Source of the DNA: Pseudomonadota bacterium
Lineage (GTDB): Bacteria; Pseudomonadota; Alphaproteobacteria; Rhizobiales; Xanthobacteraceae
Assembly: GCA_023392205.1 (NCBI GenBank)
Contig: JAEVZN010000462.1
Location: 1-13,222 of the forward strand
Reading direction: 5' to 3'
Length of the DNA: 13,222 bases
Within the stretch, counting starts at the first letter, position 1, and each line of letters opens with the position of its first letter. Of the stretch, positions 3,765 through 10,912 are shown in pieces. The notes beneath the pieces are model-generated. The model made no database searches and had not been told where the DNA came from. It worked only from the letters and a program-made list of their open reading frames with translations. The translations under genes were made by a program, and so were the position numbers.

Positions 3765-4844
3765 TCAGGCGGCGCGTCGTTCGATATGCTTGCCCTGGAA
3801 TTGCGGAGCCACTTCGGACATGAAGCGGTCCATCTCCTCGATGACCTGCTTGTGCGGCTTCATGCCGACATTGAAGTAGAGGATCACCTCGTCGAAGCCG
3901 GCCGCTTCCACTTTCTTCAGGATTTCGGTCAGGCGGGCGGTGTTTCCGATCAGCACCGAGTTTTCGGTGAGGTCTTCCGGCTTCACTGTCTTCAGCCGCG
4001 ACACCATGTCGATGAAATAGCGGTAGCTCGGAGGCGCGGTCTTCGGATCGCCCGGCAGCGAGGGGATGACGCATTCCTGATAATAGCGGATCTGCCGTTC
4101 GCGCTGCGCCTTTTCGGCCGCGGCGTCGTCGGCAAAATGTGTGAAATAGCTGCACATCAGCCGGCCCGGCTTGGTGCCGTATTTGGCGCAGCTTTCCTTG
4201 TACAGATCCGCCACCTGCTTCAACCCGCCGAAGGTCATGGCAGCGGCGAATGGTGCGACGATCAGACCGCATTCCAGCTTGGCGGCAAGTTCGATCGAGG
4301 GCTTGGAGAACGACGCTACATAGAGCGGCATCGGGTTCTGCAAGGGCTGCGGCGTGATGCGCACGTCCTCGAACTGGTAGTGCTTGCCATTATGGTCGAT
4401 GCGGTCGCCGCCCGAACCCCAGAGCTTGCGAAGAATTTCCACGCCCTCATTGAAGATCGACTGATTGTCTTCGAACGATACACCAAAGGGGATGTATTCG
4501 CGGCGATCATAGCCGCGCCCGGCGGCGAAATCGACGCGGCCGCCGGAGAGCAGGTCGAGCGTCGCCCATTGCTCGGCGACACGGATCGGATGATGAAGCG
4601 GCAGCACAGTCACCGCAGGCGCGAGGCGGATATGCTTGGTCTGCGCGGCGATATAGGCCAGCACCATTTCCGGCGACGAATTCACGCCGAGCGAATTGAA
4701 ATGATGCTCGCCGATCCACGCCGAATGCATGCCGAGCTTGTCGGCATACAGCGCCTCCGCCGTCAGGTCCTGGACGAACTGATTGGCGTTGCGCGTGTTG
4801 CCTTCGTAATGATTGTCCGACAGCGTGAAATAGCCGAATTCCAT
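3765..4844 (-). CDS. Luciferase-like (LLM class) flavin-dependent monooxygenase
   Basis: This is a 359-residue bacterial-luciferase-superfamily oxygenase, which uses reduced FMN supplied by a partner reductase to oxygenate an organic substrate. The family start is evident: 'MEFGYFTLSDNHY', then 'GMHSAWIGEHHF' at residues 38-49, 'LAPAVTVLPLHHPIRVAEQ' around 74-92 and 'LDLLSGGRVDFAAGRGY' at 96-112, the flavin-binding and barrel-strand segments. Length agrees with the alkanal-monooxygenase-like group and is shorter than NtaA/SsuD types. GGAGG (complement of 4851-4855) lies six bases before the ATG. The upstream gene on the same strand encodes a short-chain flavin reductase, giving a complete two-component monooxygenase. 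The substrate is unknown; the neighbouring binding protein and the RidA-like protein hint at a nitrogen- or sulfur-containing organic compound, which is inference only. Confidence 0.9.
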   Translation of the reverse strand: MEFGYFTLSDNHYEGNTRNANQFVQDLTAEALYADKLGMHSAWIGEHHFNSLGVNSSPEMVLAYIAAQTKHIRLAPAVTVLPLHHPIRVAEQWATLDLLSGGRVDFAAGRGYDRREYIPFGVSFEDNQSIFNEGVEILRKLWGSGGDRIDHNGKHYQFEDVRITPQPLQNPMPLYVASFSKPSIELAAKLECGLIVAPFAAAMTFGGLKQVADLYKESCAKYGTKPGRLMCSYFTHFADDAAAEKAQRERQIRYYQECVIPSLPGDPKTAPPSYRYFIDMVSRLKTVKPEDLTENSVLIGNTARLTEILKKVEAAGFDEVILYFNVGMKPHKQVIEEMDRFMSEVAPQFQGKHIERRAA

Positions 4845-4936: not shown

Positions 4937-5449
4937 TCAGCCGATAGGAACCACCCAGTCGATGCCTTCGCCGAGCCCGACCGTATATTGGCCGTCCTGA
5001 TAGAGAAGCGGCGCCACTTGGCCGCGCACCGCGACTTCACGCACCTTGCCGATCACAATCGAATGCGTGCCATAGCTCGACAACGCATCCGTGTCGCAGA
5101 ACACATTCGCCTGCGCTTCGATCAGATAGGGGCAATGCTCGTCGTCGCTCGCCCATTCGCCGGAGAGGAAACGGTCGGTCTCCGGAAAGCGACCACTGAA
5201 GGCGTCGGCGATATCGATCTGATGGCCCTGCAGAATGTTGATGCAGAAGCGGCCCGCGCGGATGAGCGGATCGTGCATCTTCGAGTTGCGATTGACGCAG
5301 AACAGGAGCGAGGGCGGGGCCATCGACACCGATGTCACCGAGGTCACGGTGATGCCGTGCCGTACCTGATCGTGTGCCGTGGTGACGACACTGACCGCGC
5401 TGGTCAGACGGCGCATGGCCAAGCGGAAATTCTGGTTCATCTGGTCCAT
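4937..5449 (-). CDS. Flavin reductase family protein (HpaC/RutF-like)
   Basis: This 170-residue protein matches the short-chain NAD(P)H:flavin oxidoreductase family, which makes free reduced FMN or FAD for a partner monooxygenase. Visible hallmarks are 'FRLAMRRLTSAVSVVTT' at the start, 'HGITVTSVTSVSMAPPSLLF' at about 31-50 with the following 'CVNRNS' (flavin phosphate region), 'FCINIL' at 68-73 and 'GTHSIVIGKV' at 127-136. The chosen ATG has GGGAGA (complement of 5455-5460) six bases upstream; Met4 is a less likely start. It is the first gene of the minus-strand cluster, 92 bases before the LLM monooxygenase, and is divergent from marR. Regulation by the MarR protein is suggested by the dyad inside its promoter. 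Confidence 0.9.
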   Translation of the reverse strand: MDQMNQNFRLAMRRLTSAVSVVTTAHDQVRHGITVTSVTSVSMAPPSLLFCVNRNSKMHDPLIRAGRFCINILQGHQIDIADAFSGRFPETDRFLSGEWASDDEHCPYLIEAQANVFCDTDALSSYGTHSIVIGKVREVAVRGQVAPLLYQDGQYTVGLGEGIDWVVPIG

Positions 5450-5549: not shown

Positions 5550-5675
5550 AATATGGCAGGGATGCTGACCCATTCCGTACCGGACCTCGACCAAGGCTTT
5601 GACAGGCGTCAATCCTGTCTCCTAATGGCCTAACCTGACTTCCGATTGCACATGCCAGCCCGGCAAGGCGCTTCC

Positions 5676-6167
5676 GTGACCGACAGCAAGATCGAACTGG
5701 CCGATTATCTGCCCTATCTGCTCAACCGCGTTGCCGCCGCGCTTGTCGAGCGTCACGAGGTGGAACTGAAGCGGCACGACCTGACCATCGCGATGTGGCG
5801 TGTCCTGGTATCGCTGCTCAGTCGCGGCCGGCAGCGGCAGATCGATCTCGCCGACATGACCGCCATCGATGTGTCGACATTGTCGAGGTTGATCAGCCGC
5901 ATGATCGGCATGGACCTCGTCAGCCGCTCGCGCTCGGACAACAATAACCGCGAAGTGGCGGTCGAACTGACGTCCAAGGGTCGCGCATTGGTGATCCAAC
6001 TCGTGCCGCTCGGGCAGGCGCTGGAAGGCATCGCGATCGAGGGCCTTTCGCCGTCAGAACTCGCGACTGTTCGCGACGCGCTGCGGCGGATGTACGATAA
6101 TCTGCGCCGGAACTCGGGTAGCGATACGCCCGCCAGCCGCACGCATCTGCTGCGACAGCGCGCCTGA
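5676..6167 (+). CDS. MarR family transcriptional regulator
   Basis: This 163-residue protein is a winged-helix MarR regulator, normally a dimer released from DNA by a small aromatic or otherwise reactive ligand. The N-terminal dimerisation helix 'LADYLPYLLNRVAAAL' (8-23) is followed by 'LTIAMWRVLVSLLSRG' (36-51), a recognition helix around 65-76 ('DVSTLSRLISRM') and the wing with 'SRSRSDNNNREVAVELTSKG' (83-102), an almost textbook family wing. I choose GTG 5676 because AAGG lies eight bases upstream and the protein then begins at the normal point; ATG 5646 would add ten residues without a ribosome site. It is divergent from the flavin reductase/monooxygenase pair and most likely represses both that operon and itself through the ATTGC/GCAAT dyad. 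The inducer is unknown. Confidence 0.88.
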   Translation: MTDSKIELADYLPYLLNRVAAALVERHEVELKRHDLTIAMWRVLVSLLSRGRQRQIDLADMTAIDVSTLSRLISRMIGMDLVSRSRSDNNNREVAVELTSKGRALVIQLVPLGQALEGIAIEGLSPSELATVRDALRRMYDNLRRNSGSDTPASRTHLLRQRA

Positions 6168-6264
6168 ATAATTATCCTTGTATCGGGTATGACCCGCTCT
6201 TGACCTGCCGCAAGGCGTGGCCGGGTCCGGGCCACCAGGGTAGAATCCGGAAACGGAGGATTGC

Positions 6265-6984
6265 ATGAAGGCACGCGATGTCATGACCGAGCCGGTCATA
6301 TCGATCGATACGGACGCGTCGATCGATTCGGCCATCCGGCTGATGCTGGAGAAGAAAGTCAGCGGCCTGCCGGTGACGGACGCCGCCGGCAATCTGGCCG
6401 GCATCGTCACCGAAGGCGACTTCCTGCGCCGCTCGGAGGCGGGGACGAAGCACAAGCAATCGCGCTGGCTGGAATTTTTGATGGGTCCGGGCCTCATGGC
6501 CGATCAATATGTGAAGGAGCATGGCCGCAAGGTCGGCGAGGTGATGACCCGCGATGTGATCACGGGCGAAGAGGATACGCCGCTTGACGAGATCGTGTCG
6601 CTGATGGAGCGACGCCGCGTGAAACGCATCCCGATTCTGCGCGGGAACAAACTGGCAGGAATCGTGACCCGCGCCAATCTTCTGCGCGCGCTGGCAAGCA
6701 CCATGCAGGACATGCCCGCAGGGTCGCAGGACGACGCATCCATCCGGCAAGCCATCCTCGCGCAATTGCGCAGCGAGACCTGGGCGCCGGTCGCGACCGT
6801 CGATGCAATCGTGCGCGGCGGCGCGGTGACGCTGACCGGCTATGTGCTGGATGAGCGCCAGCGGACGGCGTTGAAAGTGCTGGTGGAAAATGTGCCCGGT
6901 GTCACCTCCGTGCATGACCGCATGGTCTGGGTGGAGCCGATGACCGGGCTCACCGTCGGACCGGACGGTGCGCAGACGCCCTGA
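6265..6984 (+). CDS. CBS-CBS-BON domain protein
   Basis: This 239-residue cytoplasmic protein has a CBS pair (about 1-58 and 92-148) followed by a BON domain (about 156-223). Each CBS half starts with the usual 'DVMT'/'EVMTRDVIT' segment and ends with 'GIVTEGDFLRR' or 'GIVTRANLLRAL', the adenosyl-nucleotide-binding strand and helix. The BON part shows 'VTLTGYVLDERQRTAL' and 'VPGVTSVHDRM'. CBS pairs sense ATP, AMP or related ligands; BON domains usually bind membranes or partner proteins. CBS-BON fusions are common single genes in Rhizobiales, but their role is not established. GGAGG about five bases before ATG 6265 fixes the start. It is followed after 28 bases by the converging DoxX gene, and nothing ties it to either neighbouring system. 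Confidence 0.87.
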   Translation: MKARDVMTEPVISIDTDASIDSAIRLMLEKKVSGLPVTDAAGNLAGIVTEGDFLRRSEAGTKHKQSRWLEFLMGPGLMADQYVKEHGRKVGEVMTRDVITGEEDTPLDEIVSLMERRRVKRIPILRGNKLAGIVTRANLLRALASTMQDMPAGSQDDASIRQAILAQLRSETWAPVATVDAIVRGGAVTLTGYVLDERQRTALKVLVENVPGVTSVHDRMVWVEPMTGLTVGPDGAQTP

Positions 6985-7012: not shown

Positions 7013-7486
7013 TCAGCGTGCGCGTTGCCGTGCGATCAGATGGTCGAGCGAGATCGCACCCGGCCCCTGCGCCATCAGCACCAGAAAGCACGCCGCCCAG
7101 GTGCCATGCGTCGGCCAGGCATCCGGATAGACGAAAATCTGGATCACCAGCGTCATGATCAGAAGCGACAGGGCGGCAAATCGGGTGGCAAGCCCCAGCA
7201 CCAGCAACACCGGAAACAGATGCTCGGCCGCCGTGGCCGCGTAGGCTGCGAGCGTCGGATCGACCAGCGGCAGCCGGTATTCATCCTCGAACAGGGCAAT
7301 TGCATTCTCGGAGACATGCCAGCCCTCGAGCTTGGTCTGGCCGGAGCGCCAGAACACCGCGGCAATCGGGATTCGCAGCATCAAAGCCGTGAACCAGTAG
7401 GGAATTGCACCCATGCCTTCATAGGCGCGCAACAGATATGCAGACATGCCGGATGGCTTTTGCGCAGCGAGCGGGGTGTCGGTCAT
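7013..7486 (-). CDS. DoxX family membrane protein, last gene of the bufferin operon
   Basis: This 157-residue protein has four predicted membrane segments and the DoxX-type pattern: 'ALMLRIPIAAVFWRSGQTKL' early, then 'AATAAEHLFPVLLVLGLATRFAAL', 'LLIMTLVIQIFVYP' and 'WAACFLVLMAQGPGAISLDHL'. DoxX proteins are inner-membrane proteins of the quinol oxidase/SURF4-like group and often end bufA-bufB-bufC operons, where they may couple bufferin maturation or export to the membrane; that role is not settled. The ATG overlaps the bufC stop as ATGA, so translation is coupled. A GGGAG ribosome site lies upstream within bufC. It ends 28 bases from the converging CBS-BON gene. Confidence 0.85.
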   Translation of the reverse strand: MTDTPLAAQKPSGMSAYLLRAYEGMGAIPYWFTALMLRIPIAAVFWRSGQTKLEGWHVSENAIALFEDEYRLPLVDPTLAAYAATAAEHLFPVLLVLGLATRFAALSLLIMTLVIQIFVYPDAWPTHGTWAACFLVLMAQGPGAISLDHLIARQRAR

Positions 7487-8259
7487 GATCGGGCTCCCTT
7501 GTCACAGGCGATCACCAGTCCCGACTGGATCAGGCCTGCGAGATTGGCGGTGAGGTCGAAATGCGGCGCGCATGCCAGTGCGTGTGTTGCTGCAACCGAC
7601 AGCGTTGCGCCTTCGGAAAGCATTGCGAGAAAATCAGCGCCGCCCGGCGGCAGGGCACGTACCAGTACCGTCGATTCCGGGCGGACGATAATCGCGTCCT
7701 CGCCGCCCTCGTCTTCGATTGCGCGCAGTGGCATCTCGCCCGCATTCATCGCCCAGATCGTCACCACCGGATGAAGTGAGCGGATCAGCGCAAAAGACGG
7801 ATGCAGCTTGCAGCGCATGTCCCCGATGTCGCCCGGATCGATGGCCTGAAAGAACTCCGGTGCGAGCGGCACGGCATCGGCGGCGTGATAGGCGCGGATG
7901 CGCGCATCTTCCAGACGCGCGACATCGCCGAGATAGGGCAGGGAGGTGGCCGGTTCGAAGGTGTCGATGAAGGCGCCAAAATCGTCGCCATATTCGTGCA
8001 GGATCTTCGAGCGTGGCAGATGCCGCGCGATATAGACACGTGCCATGGCGGCAAAGAATTCGTCGCCGACGATGCGCGCGGTGGCGGGAAACTTCGCGCG
8101 CAGTGCGTCGATCAGACCTGCAATGACATTGTTGCGATAGACCGCGAAGCGCCTATTCGGCGGCTGACCATGATGTGCCACTGCCTGCGGCGGCAGAGGC
8201 GCATCGGGATCGAGCAAGGCTGCGGCGAACGCCGCCTGTTGGACGATAAGCATGCTCAC
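7483..8259 (-). CDS. bufC: BufC-like DUF2063 protein, bufferin maturation partner
   Basis: This 258-residue protein matches the DUF2063 ('putative DNA-binding domain') family. N-terminal features are the usual '[12 protein letters not shown]', then '[33 protein letters not shown]' and '[22 protein letters not shown]', characteristic family blocks. In bufferin and methanobactin-type systems this family is the non-catalytic partner that presents the precursor peptide to the DUF692 iron oxygenase; the DNA-binding label is historical. It starts with GTG at 8259 overlapping the bufB stop by four bases (GTGA); ATG two codons later is an alternative. It overlaps the DoxX gene by four bases at the other end. 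The gene is intact, in contrast to bufB upstream, though its translation may be reduced by loss of coupling. Confidence 0.87.
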
Positions 8260-9148
8260 GCCGCCTTTGCCTGTGCGGCGCGTGACAGGATGCGTCCGGC
8301 CATCCGCGCTTCGCTGGCGAGAATTGGCCAGTCAGGCACATCGTTGTCCCATTCGATCAGCGTCGGCAGCGGACCGGTCTGCGCGATCACACGTTCGTAC
8401 AGCGCCCAGACCGGATCGGAGACCGGCGATCCATGAGCGTCGACAAGTAGTGGCGCGCCCGTCTCGTCGCACTGGGCGGCGTGGCCGCCGAGATGGATTT
8501 CCTTCACGCGTGCAAGCGGGAATTCGTGGATGTAGGATGCAGCGTCGGTGCCATGATTGGCCGCCTGCACCACCACATTGTTCACATCGAGCAACAGTCC
8601 GCAGCCGGTGCGCTTTGCGATTGTCGCGAGAAACGCCGCTTCCGTCATCGTGCTGTCGGCAAAGGCGAGATAGGTCGAGGGATTTTCCAGCAGGATCTCG
8701 CGTTGCAGCGTCTCCTGCACCTGGTCGATATGCGAGATGATGCGCGCAAGCGTGTCGTCATTATATGGCAGCGGGAGAAGATCGTTCAGGAATATCCCGT
8801 CATGCGAAGACCAGGCGAGATGTTCGGAAAAGCTGTGCGGTTGGTATCGGTCGCAGAGGCTTTCAGCCGCGAAAGATGATCGCGGTCGAGCGGCCCGGCG
8901 CCGCCGATGGACAGGCCGACGCCGTGGATCGACAGCGCGAAGCGCTCGCGCAGGGTGCGCAGCATGGCATGCGGTGGACCGCCTGCGCCCATATAATTCT
9001 CGGCATGGATTTCAACAAAGCCGATAGCATCGGCATCCTCGCGCATCGCTTCGAAATGCTGCGGCTTGAAGCCTGTTCCGGGTGTGGCAGGGAGTGCGGT
9101 CCTGAGCATGACGAGACCTTGCGATCGTATGGATGTGCGGAAGCGCAT
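8256..9148 (-). pseudogene. bufB: bufB: DUF692/MNIO bufferin maturase, interrupted by a one-base deletion
   Basis: DUF692 proteins are multinuclear non-heme iron oxygenases that convert precursor cysteines into heterocycles. Residues 1-97 read in one frame with 'TGFKPQHF', 'EIHAENYM' and '[11 protein letters not shown]'. After 'RLKA' the frame runs on through unrelated residues to a stop. Shifting by one base at 8858 restores the expected '[16 protein letters not shown]', then '[10 protein letters not shown]', 'LENPSTYL', 'DVNNV', 'EIHLGGH', 'LVDAHG' and 'IEWDNDVP', ending at 8256 with a four-base overlap with bufC. The rejoined product is 297 residues, or 284 from Met14 (9109), matching the family. 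One base is missing around 8858-8859. Unshifted, nearly all metal ligands after the first His/Glu set are lost. A sequencing error, a true mutation or recoding are all possible; I see no canonical slippery heptamer. ATG 9148 has GGAGG nine bases upstream; ATG 9109 has AAGG. Confidence 0.85.
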
Positions 9149-9157
9149 TCGCGTGAC

Positions 9158-9181
9158 CCTCCCCCTGGGGTGAGGGGGAGG
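9158..9181 (-). promoter_or_regulatory. Hairpin between bufA and bufB covering the bufB ribosome site
   Basis: CCTCCCCC and GGGGGAGG form a perfect eight-base stem with an eight-base loop, between the bufA stop (9205) and the bufB start (9148). In the minus-strand transcript the 3' arm is itself the GGAGG ribosome site for ATG 9148. The hairpin could lower bufB translation or act as a partial terminator/3' stabiliser, so that far more precursor than maturase is made. No T run follows. Confidence 0.5.
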
Positions 9182-9204
9182 GATGCCGCAAACGACAAGA
9201 GACT

Positions 9205-9486
9205 TCAGCTCTTGATTTCGGCGAGCGAGCCTTTGCCCTTCGGCGTTGTCATCGACACGCAGGTGCCCTTGGGTACGTATTTCCAGGCATTGCCCTGGTA
9301 ATCGACCTTCGAAGTGCCGGCGCAGGTGGTGCCCGGTCCGGCCGCGCAGTCGTTCTTGCCGGCGAGGGAGACACCGTAGCAGCGTTCGCGGTCGGCCTTG
9401 GCCTGTGCGAAAGCGGGTGAAGCGGACATGACGAGCGCGGCGGCGAAGGAGCCGGCGAGGGCCGTGGCGGCAAGCTTGGTGTTCAT
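9205..9486 (-). CDS. bufA: BufA-like DUF2282 bufferin precursor
   Basis: This 93-residue protein is a RiPP precursor of the DUF2282 family (bufferins), periplasmic copper-binding peptides matured by BufB and BufC. A signal peptide is clear: Lys4, a hydrophobic Ala/Leu core and a likely cut after A-F-A (residue 27). The mature part carries four cysteines at 36, 47, 55 and 76, in the family arrangement: 'RCYG', 'GKNDCAAG', 'TCAG', then '[10 protein letters not shown]' near the end. In characterised bufferins the two central cysteines become thiooxazole-type groups that chelate copper, while the outer pair can form a disulfide. The start is fixed by GGAGG six bases before the ATG. A GTAACG-N16-CGAA site lies about 90 bases upstream. 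It is first in the operon with bufB, bufC and doxX. The precursor is intact although bufB is frameshifted. Confidence 0.92.
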
Positions 9487-9574
9487 CGAAATCCTCCGGA
9501 ATTCAGATATTCAATGGCTGGCGCGGCGCCGTGATGGCGCGAGCGCGGACCGGACGCCCCGGCCTTGCATGTGT

Positions 9575-9600
9575 TTCGGCGGGATGCATTCGTGCGTTAC
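9575..9600 (-). promoter_or_regulatory. SigF-type promoter of the bufferin operon
   Basis: On the minus strand GTAACG (complement of 9595-9600) and CGAA (complement of 9575-9578) are separated by exactly 16 bases. This matches the GTAACC-N16-CGAA pattern known for Caulobacter SigF promoters, with one mismatch in the last base of the -35 box. Transcription would begin near 9568 and give a leader of about 80 bases before bufA. Confidence 0.72.
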
Positions 9601-9681
9601 ACTCGCTTGCGCGCGACCTGCTCACAGTCTTGTGTTCGAGAGCGGGGCGTCGAAAAACTGCGGATGGATTGCGACACTGGC

Positions 9682-9707
9682 GTAACAATGGTCTGCCTTG
9701 CTGCGAA
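9682..9707 (+). promoter_or_regulatory. SigF-type autoregulatory promoter of sigF-nrsF
   Basis: GTAACA (9682-9687), 16 bases, then CGAA (9704-9707) on the plus strand repeats the motif found in front of bufA, in opposite orientation and 82 bases away. It ends 21 bases before the sigma-factor start codon. Two copies of the same spaced motif facing outwards in one 242-base gap are unlikely by chance and point to shared control by the adjacent sigma factor. Confidence 0.72.
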
Positions 9708-9728
9708 TAATCGAAGGACGACAGACGT

Positions 9729-10277
9729 TTGAAAGCTCGCGAAGAGGACTGGGCGCAAGGCATGCGCGCGGGCAAAGCCGGCGATGCCACAGCCTATGAT
9801 CGCTGTCTGCGCGACATCGCGCAGGTCGTGCGAGTCTGGGTGCGTGGCGGGCTATACCGGGCCGGCGGCAATCCGGCCGATACGGAGGATGTGGTGCAGG
9901 ATATCCTGATCGCCCTGCATACCAGGCGGCACACCTGGGACGAGAGCCGCCCGATCGGCCCCTGGGTGGCGGGGATCGCGCGCTACAAGATCATCGATTC
10001 TCTGCGCCGCCGCGGAAAGCGTGCCGAATTGCCGATCGAGGATTTCATCGAGGTTCTGCCAGCTGAGCCTGAAGCGGAGGCCATGAGCGAGCGCGACATG
10101 ACTCGCATCCTTGATGTCCTGCCGGACGGTCAGCGCGCGGTGGTGCGATCCATCGCAGTGGACGGCGCATCCATTGCAGAGACGGCGCGACAACTCGATA
10201 TGAGCGAAGGTGCGGTGCGTGTCGCGCTGCATCGCGGATTGGGAGCCTTGGCCAAACGCCACCGAATCGAGACATGA
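9729..10277 (+). CDS. sigF: ECF sigma factor, SigF-like
   Basis: This 182-residue ECF sigma factor has a sigma2 domain (about 22-97, with 'DTEDVVQDILIALH' as region 2.2 and 'IGPWVAGIARYKIIDSLRRR' as 2.3-2.4) and a sigma4 domain (about 124-178, with 'LPDGQRAVV' and the helix-turn-helix 'SIAETARQLDMSEGAVRVALHRGLGAL'). It starts with TTG 9729, with AAGGA ten bases upstream; ATG 9762 is an alternative. Its stop overlaps the nrsF start as ATGA. In Caulobacter the SigF-NrsF pair responds to copper and other metal/oxidative stress and drives bufferin genes. Here the pair is divergent from the bufferin operon and matching promoters face both ways, so the assignment is well supported by context. Confidence 0.9.
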   Translation: MKAREEDWAQGMRAGKAGDATAYDRCLRDIAQVVRVWVRGGLYRAGGNPADTEDVVQDILIALHTRRHTWDESRPIGPWVAGIARYKIIDSLRRRGKRAELPIEDFIEVLPAEPEAEAMSERDMTRILDVLPDGQRAVVRSIAVDGASIAETARQLDMSEGAVRVALHRGLGALAKRHRIET

Positions 10278-10912
10278 AGACCGACGACCTCATCCGCGCA
10301 CTCGCGGCCGATCAGGAGCCTGCCGGACCGCCACCCGGTCTGTCACTGGCGCTCGCCGGTGCGCTCGGCTTTATGATTTCGGCCGCAGCTTTCGGCTGGT
10401 TTATAGGCCTGCGGCCGGGATTGTCCGAGTTGATCACTTCGCTGCCCTTCATGCTGAAGCCGGTGGAGACCGGATTGCTGGTGGTTGTGGCGGCGATTGG
10501 TCTGACTCGTCTTGCGCGGCCCGGCGTGCCGCTGGGCGGCGTGGTTCTTGTCGGTGCATTGGTGCCGGCCATTGTCATCGCCGCGCTGGCAGTTGAATTG
10601 ATGAGCGTGCCGCGCAGCGAATGGCTGGTGCGGCTCGCCGGCGCGCATTGGTATATCTGCCTTCTGAACATGGTGCTGCTTTCGCTGCCCATCCTCGCCG
10701 CGTTGTTGTTCGGATTGCGCTATGGCGCACCGACGCGCCCCACTGTGGCCGGGGCGGGAGCGGGCCTGCTGGCAGGGGCCTTGTCCACAACGCTTTACAT
10801 CTCCCATTGCCCCGACGATTCGCCGATCTTCGTGGCCGCGTGGTTCACGCTAGCGATCCTGATTGCAACCGGCATCGGCGCAATCGCAGGTTCCCGCCTC
10901 CTGCGCTGGTAA
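10274..10912 (+). CDS. nrsF: NrsF-like (DUF1109) membrane anti-sigma factor
   Basis: This 212-residue protein starts with a short cytoplasmic segment 'MKTDDLIRALAAD', typical of DUF1109 proteins, followed by six predicted membrane helices. NrsF holds the sigma factor at the inner membrane and releases it under stress. Two cysteines stand out: Cys129 in 'HWYICLLNM' and Cys179 in 'ISHCPDDSP'. They fall at almost the same positions as the pair needed for sensing in Caulobacter NrsF, and the 'HCPDD' block is the family hallmark. Translation is coupled to sigF by an ATGA overlap. A hydrolase gene follows after 53 bases with no obvious terminator, so it may be cotranscribed. Confidence 0.9.
   Translation: MKTDDLIRALAADQEPAGPPPGLSLALAGALGFMISAAAFGWFIGLRPGLSELITSLPFMLKPVETGLLVVVAAIGLTRLARPGVPLGGVVLVGALVPAIVIAALAVELMSVPRSEWLVRLAGAHWYICLLNMVLLSLPILAALLFGLRYGAPTRPTVAGAGAGLLAGALSTTLYISHCPDDSPIFVAAWFTLAILIATGIGAIAGSRLLRW

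Follow-up and report, generated by a model that had tools for sequence, protein, structure and literature searches.

The 13,222-nucleotide stretch of DNA analysed here (the window; contig JAEVZN010000462.1, from an alphaproteobacterium of the family Xanthobacteraceae) carries a Buf1-type bufferin operon, bufA-bufB-bufC-doxX, that is very probably controlled by a divergently transcribed extracytoplasmic function sigma factor of group 16 (ECF16-type) together with its membrane anti-sigma factor NrsF. We put the probability of this reading at about 0.85. It rests on the genes themselves, two promoter motifs, the cysteines of the encoded proteins and a layout conserved among relatives, all observed here. 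A sigF-linked bufferin cluster is an already known arrangement, published in Caulobacter and in Sinorhizobium meliloti. Our analysis adds a Pseudorhodoplanes-like bacterium to the known carriers of this copper-stress module, together with an interrupted bufB gene and a correlation between the bufA promoter motif and the presence of NrsF. The features of the locus are as follows.

7013–7486, minus strand: doxX-family gene, last in the bufferin operon (Pfam DoxX, E 5.7e-19)
7483–8259, minus strand: bufC, DUF2063 partner protein (Pfam DUF2063, E 2.2e-27)
8256–8720, minus strand: C-terminal part of bufB, the MNIO maturase, in a second frame (Pfam MbnB_TglH_ChrH, profile positions 123–261 of 263, E 7.3e-54; three-frame translation)
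8786–9148, minus strand: N-terminal part of bufB, in the first frame (same Pfam profile, positions 3–83 of 263, E 3.9e-23; alignment with relatives)
9205–9486, minus strand: bufA, Buf1-type (DUF2282) bufferin precursor of 93 amino acids (Pfam DUF2282, E 2.6e-25)
9575–9600, minus strand: sigma-F-type promoter motif GTAAC-N17-CGAA facing bufA (strict motif match)
9682–9707, plus strand: sigma-F-type promoter motif GTAAC-N17-CGAA facing sigF (strict motif match)
9729–10277, plus strand: sigF-like ECF sigma factor, listed with a TTG start (Pfam Sigma70_r2, E 9.8e-12; r4_2, E 1.3e-11)
10274–10912, plus strand: nrsF-like anti-sigma factor, DUF1109 (Pfam NrsF, profile positions 1–204 of 204, E 1.5e-54)

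At 7013–10912 Pfam places DoxX, DUF2063, the BufB enzyme, DUF2282, the ECF sigma factor and NrsF in that order, which bears out the families, strands and back-to-back arrangement given in a preliminary description of this DNA. All the neighbours named there (DUF2282, DUF692, DUF2063 and DUF1109) were recognised in the profile search. The genes overlap by 4 bases at each of the bufC/bufB, doxX/bufC and sigF/nrsF junctions, and the ECF sigma factor and the DUF1109 anti-sigma factor, on the same strand, form one predicted operon. Short gene overlaps of this kind are common in operons.

The precursor, BufA, is a DUF2282 protein (PF10048) with four conserved cysteines (Cys 36, 47, 55 and 76) and an N-terminus that, judged by eye, resembles a signal peptide; it scores 21.8 on the NCBIfam BufA2 model, far under the cut-off of 60. 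The DUF2063 partner and the DoxX gene of a Buf1 cluster are both present, and bufA, bufC and doxX are intact by Pfam. The NCBIfam HvfC and HvfX models were matched below their cut-offs (39.3 vs 142 and 62.6 vs 80). On the other strand, sigF reaches 248.4 bits on NCBIfam NF009165 (cut-off 198). Its partner scores 185.3 against a Pfam NrsF cut-off of 26.8 and 123.6 bits against the 300 required by the NCBIfam AntiSigF_NrsF equivalog NF042994, so we regard it as a member of the Pfam family and not as a proven orthologue. This NrsF has two cysteines, Cys 129 and Cys 179, and a motif search detected both in 41 of 45 relatives; the four misses are a partial match (L047) and three proteins that differ around the second cysteine (L055, L071 and L074). 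No solved relative of the window NrsF was found at E 0.1.

The preliminary description had proposed comparing the locus across genomes, and the divergent layout does recur. The comparison used 80 loci, those of the best-ranking members of a set of 155 confirmed BufB relatives. In every one of the 80, bufA, both bufB parts and, where found, bufC and doxX share one strand and the same order. A doxX match was found in 59 and bufC without doxX in 20, 1 has neither, and some loci stop at a contig end. A sigF and nrsF pair lies divergent from bufA within 1.5 kb in 44 loci, one further locus (L022) has an nrsF match without a sigF match, and 35 have neither. In L022 the nrsF match (5870–6268, minus strand) adjoins bufA with neither a sigF match nor a promoter motif, and the genome has a second NrsF. 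The seven best loci all come from metagenome bins, six labelled Pseudorhodoplanes, Pseudolabrys or Xanthobacteraceae and one Rhizobium. The closest over the whole neighbourhood is a Pseudorhodoplanes locus (L006), with 72% identity in NrsF, 66% in sigF, 74% in the downstream esterase and 67% in the CBS protein, taken from the best tblastn segments.

A separate survey covered 100 genomes belonging to the same family as the L006 genome. NrsF was above cut-off in 68 of them and DUF2282 in 35, and 33 of those 35 also had NrsF (Fisher p 1.5e-5). An NrsF gene lies divergent within 2 kb of 22 of the 37 DUF2282 genes and divergent at 4.5 kb from 1 more; in 3 cases it lies about 3 kb off on the same strand, and for 11 the contig has no NrsF gene within 6 kb. 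These distances omit two sub-cut-off NrsF rows, and contig breaks may hide some pairs. Genomes G076, G077 and G080, where NrsF lies about 3 kb from the DUF2282 gene on the same strand, represent a different layout.

In Caulobacter, the sigma-F promoter has been published as GTAACC-N16-CGAA (PMC3511200), and our strict motif, GTAAC-N15-17-CGAA, is that promoter with the sixth base free. Exactly two matches occur in the 13.2-kb window, both in the bufA–sigF gap and one per operon, with A or G as the sixth base. In 5000 shuffles of the 242-base gap, a plus-strand match arose 5 times and a minus-strand match 6 times, never the two together. Across the 44 divergent loci the strict motif faces bufA in 11 and sigF in 11, with both in 8 and at least one in 14 (shuffle means 0.17, 0.11 and, for both, 0). 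The remaining 30, mostly Rhizobium and its kin, carry GTAAC-N17-CGTA toward sigF in 29 and toward bufA in 23. With CGTA admitted, a variant that we added after seeing the loci, the counts rise to 35 of 44 toward bufA, 42 of 44 toward sigF and 33 of 44 for both (shuffle means 0.15, 0.085 and 0), leaving 9 divergent loci without a bufA-ward motif and 2 without a sigF-ward one.

The 36 loci lacking an adjacent sigF-nrsF pair provide a separate view of the same promoter. Within 500 bases before the bufA match, the motif occurs in 6 of them (shuffle mean 0.155). Whole-genome searches of all 36 found NrsF above cut-off in 7, namely those same 6 and the motif-less L022. Of the 7 genomes with NrsF, 6 thus have the motif, and none of the 29 others does (Fisher p 3.6e-6; relatedness among the genomes and the incompleteness of some make this value only indicative). 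Counting as positive the weak, sub-cut-off NrsF-like matches in the L026 and L053 genomes gives 6 of 9 vs 0 of 27. Because the motif tracks NrsF even where the pair is not adjacent, the comparison supports sigma-F as the factor that would read the bufA promoter, and GTAAC-N16-18-CGWA before bufA is a simple candidate marker for sigma-F-run bufferin operons. In three Labrys loci (L012, L025 and L034), overlapping sigma-F-type motifs on both strands lie about 250–285 bases before the bufA match; no sigF or nrsF match was found in these loci, and each genome has NrsF elsewhere.

A close published parallel is in Caulobacter. The preliminary description placed these partners not all at one locus and treated their occurrence together as unusual. 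Table 1 of PMC3511200, however, gives CC3252 (nrsF), CC3253 (sigF) and CC3254–CC3257 (DUF2282, DUF692, DUF2063 and DoxX) as consecutive, and the arrangement is, as noted, both published and frequent among relatives. In PMC8224329 nrsF is tagged CCNA_03273 beside CCNA_03362–03366, yet the genes are called one cluster. Divergence at the Caulobacter locus can be deduced from CC3252 being second in the sigF operon and CC3254 first of CC3254–3257 (PMC3511200). The window shares with it the six families, the promoter class and two NrsF cysteines (C131 and C181 in Caulobacter; PMC3511200), and differs in its interrupted bufB and in the sixth promoter base, which in Caulobacter is C. In S. meliloti, the ECF16 sigma/anti-sigma pair rpoE7-ecfR7 has four divergent targets, SMb20527–SMb20530, which the authors liken to CC3254–CC3257, with promoter motifs predicted on both sides and RpoE7 regulation of these homologous genes reported (PMC6180224). 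The Rhizobium-labelled loci of our set mostly have CGTA, in contrast to CGAA in the window. Buf1 bufferin clusters more broadly have the same core of DUF2282, MNIO, DUF2063 and DoxX, some with genes for a sigma factor and NrsF; relative to the clusters described in PMC12452194, the window differs only by its broken bufB.

The signal, the release step, the peptide modification and the copper binding that we propose for the window are taken from these published relatives. In Caulobacter, sigma-F is kept in check by NrsF, whose cysteines matter, CC3254–CC3257 are sigF-dependent under dichromate and the CC3254 and sigF promoters are alike (PMC3511200); copper induces the sigma-F regulon, and sigF inactivation severely impairs growth with copper (PMC8224329). 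By analogy, NrsF would hold sigma-F at the inner membrane until stress from a thiophilic metal, copper being the likeliest, acts at the conserved cysteines of NrsF and frees the sigma factor. Freed sigma-F would then transcribe sigF-nrsF and bufA-bufB-bufC-doxX from the two divergent promoters in the one gap. With its central cysteines modified by BufB and BufC, exported BufA would bind excess copper. As long as bufB is interrupted as given, the modification step should fail, barring a sequencing error at this point or the action of another BufB in trans. The earlier proposal that sigma-F drives the bufferin operon as well as its own thus gains support from the two facing motifs, their recurrence in relatives and the published regulation of homologues.

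Release by oxidative stress, the other trigger originally suggested, fares less well: oxidants did not induce Caulobacter sigma-F genes (PMC3511200), and S. meliloti rpoE7 was flat with H2O2 (PMC6180224). Two reports favour it. Earlier work cited in PMC8224329 found a Caulobacter sigF mutant impaired in stationary-phase oxidative-stress resistance, and the more distant ecfF-osrA system of Bradyrhizobium japonicum is induced by H2O2 (PMC3420878). The latter system raises the possibility that the window pair is mainly oxidant-responsive and controls methionine sulfoxide reductases (Msr), with the bufferin neighbourhood incidental. EcfF-OsrA resembles the window pair in being a group 16 ECF sigma factor with a predicted anti-sigma factor, a related promoter and cysteines numbered identically, 129 and 179; genes for peptide methionine sulfoxide reductases belong to its regulon (PMC3420878). 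Its targets in Table 3 of that paper, however, are Msr genes, a cytochrome c biogenesis protein and hypothetical proteins; no buf family is named in that table, and the hypothetical proteins could hide one. The sigma-F motif before bufA, in the window and in relatives, and its tracking of NrsF also argue against an incidental neighbourhood, and we consider an Msr-controlling role improbable.

Several observations weigh against control of the bufferin operon by sigma-F. The strict literature motif, taken alone, covers only the minority of divergent loci counted above, and the higher counts depend on the CGTA variant adopted after inspection. Most surveyed NrsF genes are not beside a DUF2282 gene (94 NrsF genes, 22 divergent pairs). 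Caulobacter sigF shows no strong auto-regulation during Cr or Cd stress (PMC3511200), though its transcript rose with copper (PMC8224329), and mutants in sigF, CC2906 or CC3255 had no heightened sensitivity to either of the two metals Cr and Cd (PMC3511200). S. meliloti rpoE7 and its target likewise showed no rise with H2O2, CdCl2 or K2CrO4 (PMC6180224). Finally, bufB in the window is broken as sequenced.

The preliminary description called the operon complete. As sequenced, bufB is not one open reading frame (ORF) but two in different frames, and the intact MNIO maturase of a Buf1 cluster is accordingly missing. Three-frame translation shows that the homologous sequence switches frame near 8860: the first frame departs from homology there and then reaches a stop, and homology in the second frame is readable upstream to about 8861. 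A single open frame connects the two matched parts in 79 of the 80 relatives, the lone exception (L043) having an in-frame stop between them. We built a joined query of 284 amino acids, with the two parts linked by X at the junction and the internal Met that matches the start of relatives as its first residue; 8000 candidates were scored, 7976 passed and 120 were listed. Among these 120, most are 284–285 amino acids long, many align over 100% of the query, the best has 76% identity, and no intact same-species copy appears. The window BufB, its junction masked, scores 374.7 bits against a cut-off of 310 on the curated BufB model, close to the 390.1 bits of an intact homologue (P0022), and its family identity is clear. 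When this homologue served as the query, 3bww and 8hci were found as solved relatives of BufB.

Taken with the 14 other scanned genes, which span nearly the full length of their best Pfam profiles, the conservation on both sides of the break and the good model score make the lesion look like a single frame change. A programmed frameshift was considered and rejected, as one frame runs through 79 of 80 relatives and no usual slippery heptamer was seen by eye. Since no intact same-species copy is among the 120 homologues listed, the lesion may be either a real mutation or a sequencing error. We lean toward a sequencing or assembly error in an otherwise whole operon: bufB is the only broken gene found among 15 scanned, and the sequence on both sides of the break is well conserved. 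The missing same-species copy and the lack, by eye, of a long homopolymer at the break speak against an error. A decaying operon, in which a real frameshift leaves the bufferin unmodified or modified by another enzyme while the promoters still work, is a lesser though serious prospect. The frame change itself, its confinement to bufB and the intact gene in nearly all relatives fit such decay; the full alignment of the masked parts to homologues, with no further lesion seen in bufB, and the intact bufA, bufC and doxX do not. These last two points are what a very recent event, or an error, would leave. The completeness of the bufferin operon therefore hinges on a check of one gene, bufB.

A broader proposal, which we offer tentatively and think rather unlikely, joins a real frameshift to the promoter results. 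A sigma-F-controlled operon would have lost its maturase, its peptide remaining unmodified or being modified in trans by another MNIO, and alphaproteobacterial bufferin operons would fall into sigma-F-dependent and sigma-F-independent classes told apart by one promoter motif, even with sigF elsewhere in the genome.

A plasmid origin of the window was also considered and rejected, as megablast against plasmids returned five records with short matches covering 1–2% of the window. Elsewhere in the window, an ORF of 425 amino acids at 100–1377 has three stretches that match the L-PSP (Rid) family. Genes for a luciferase-like monooxygenase (3765–4844) and a flavin reductase (4937–5449) lie on the minus strand with a MarR-type regulator nearby (5646–6167, plus strand), and relatives of all three are also found near the buf operon in locus L003.

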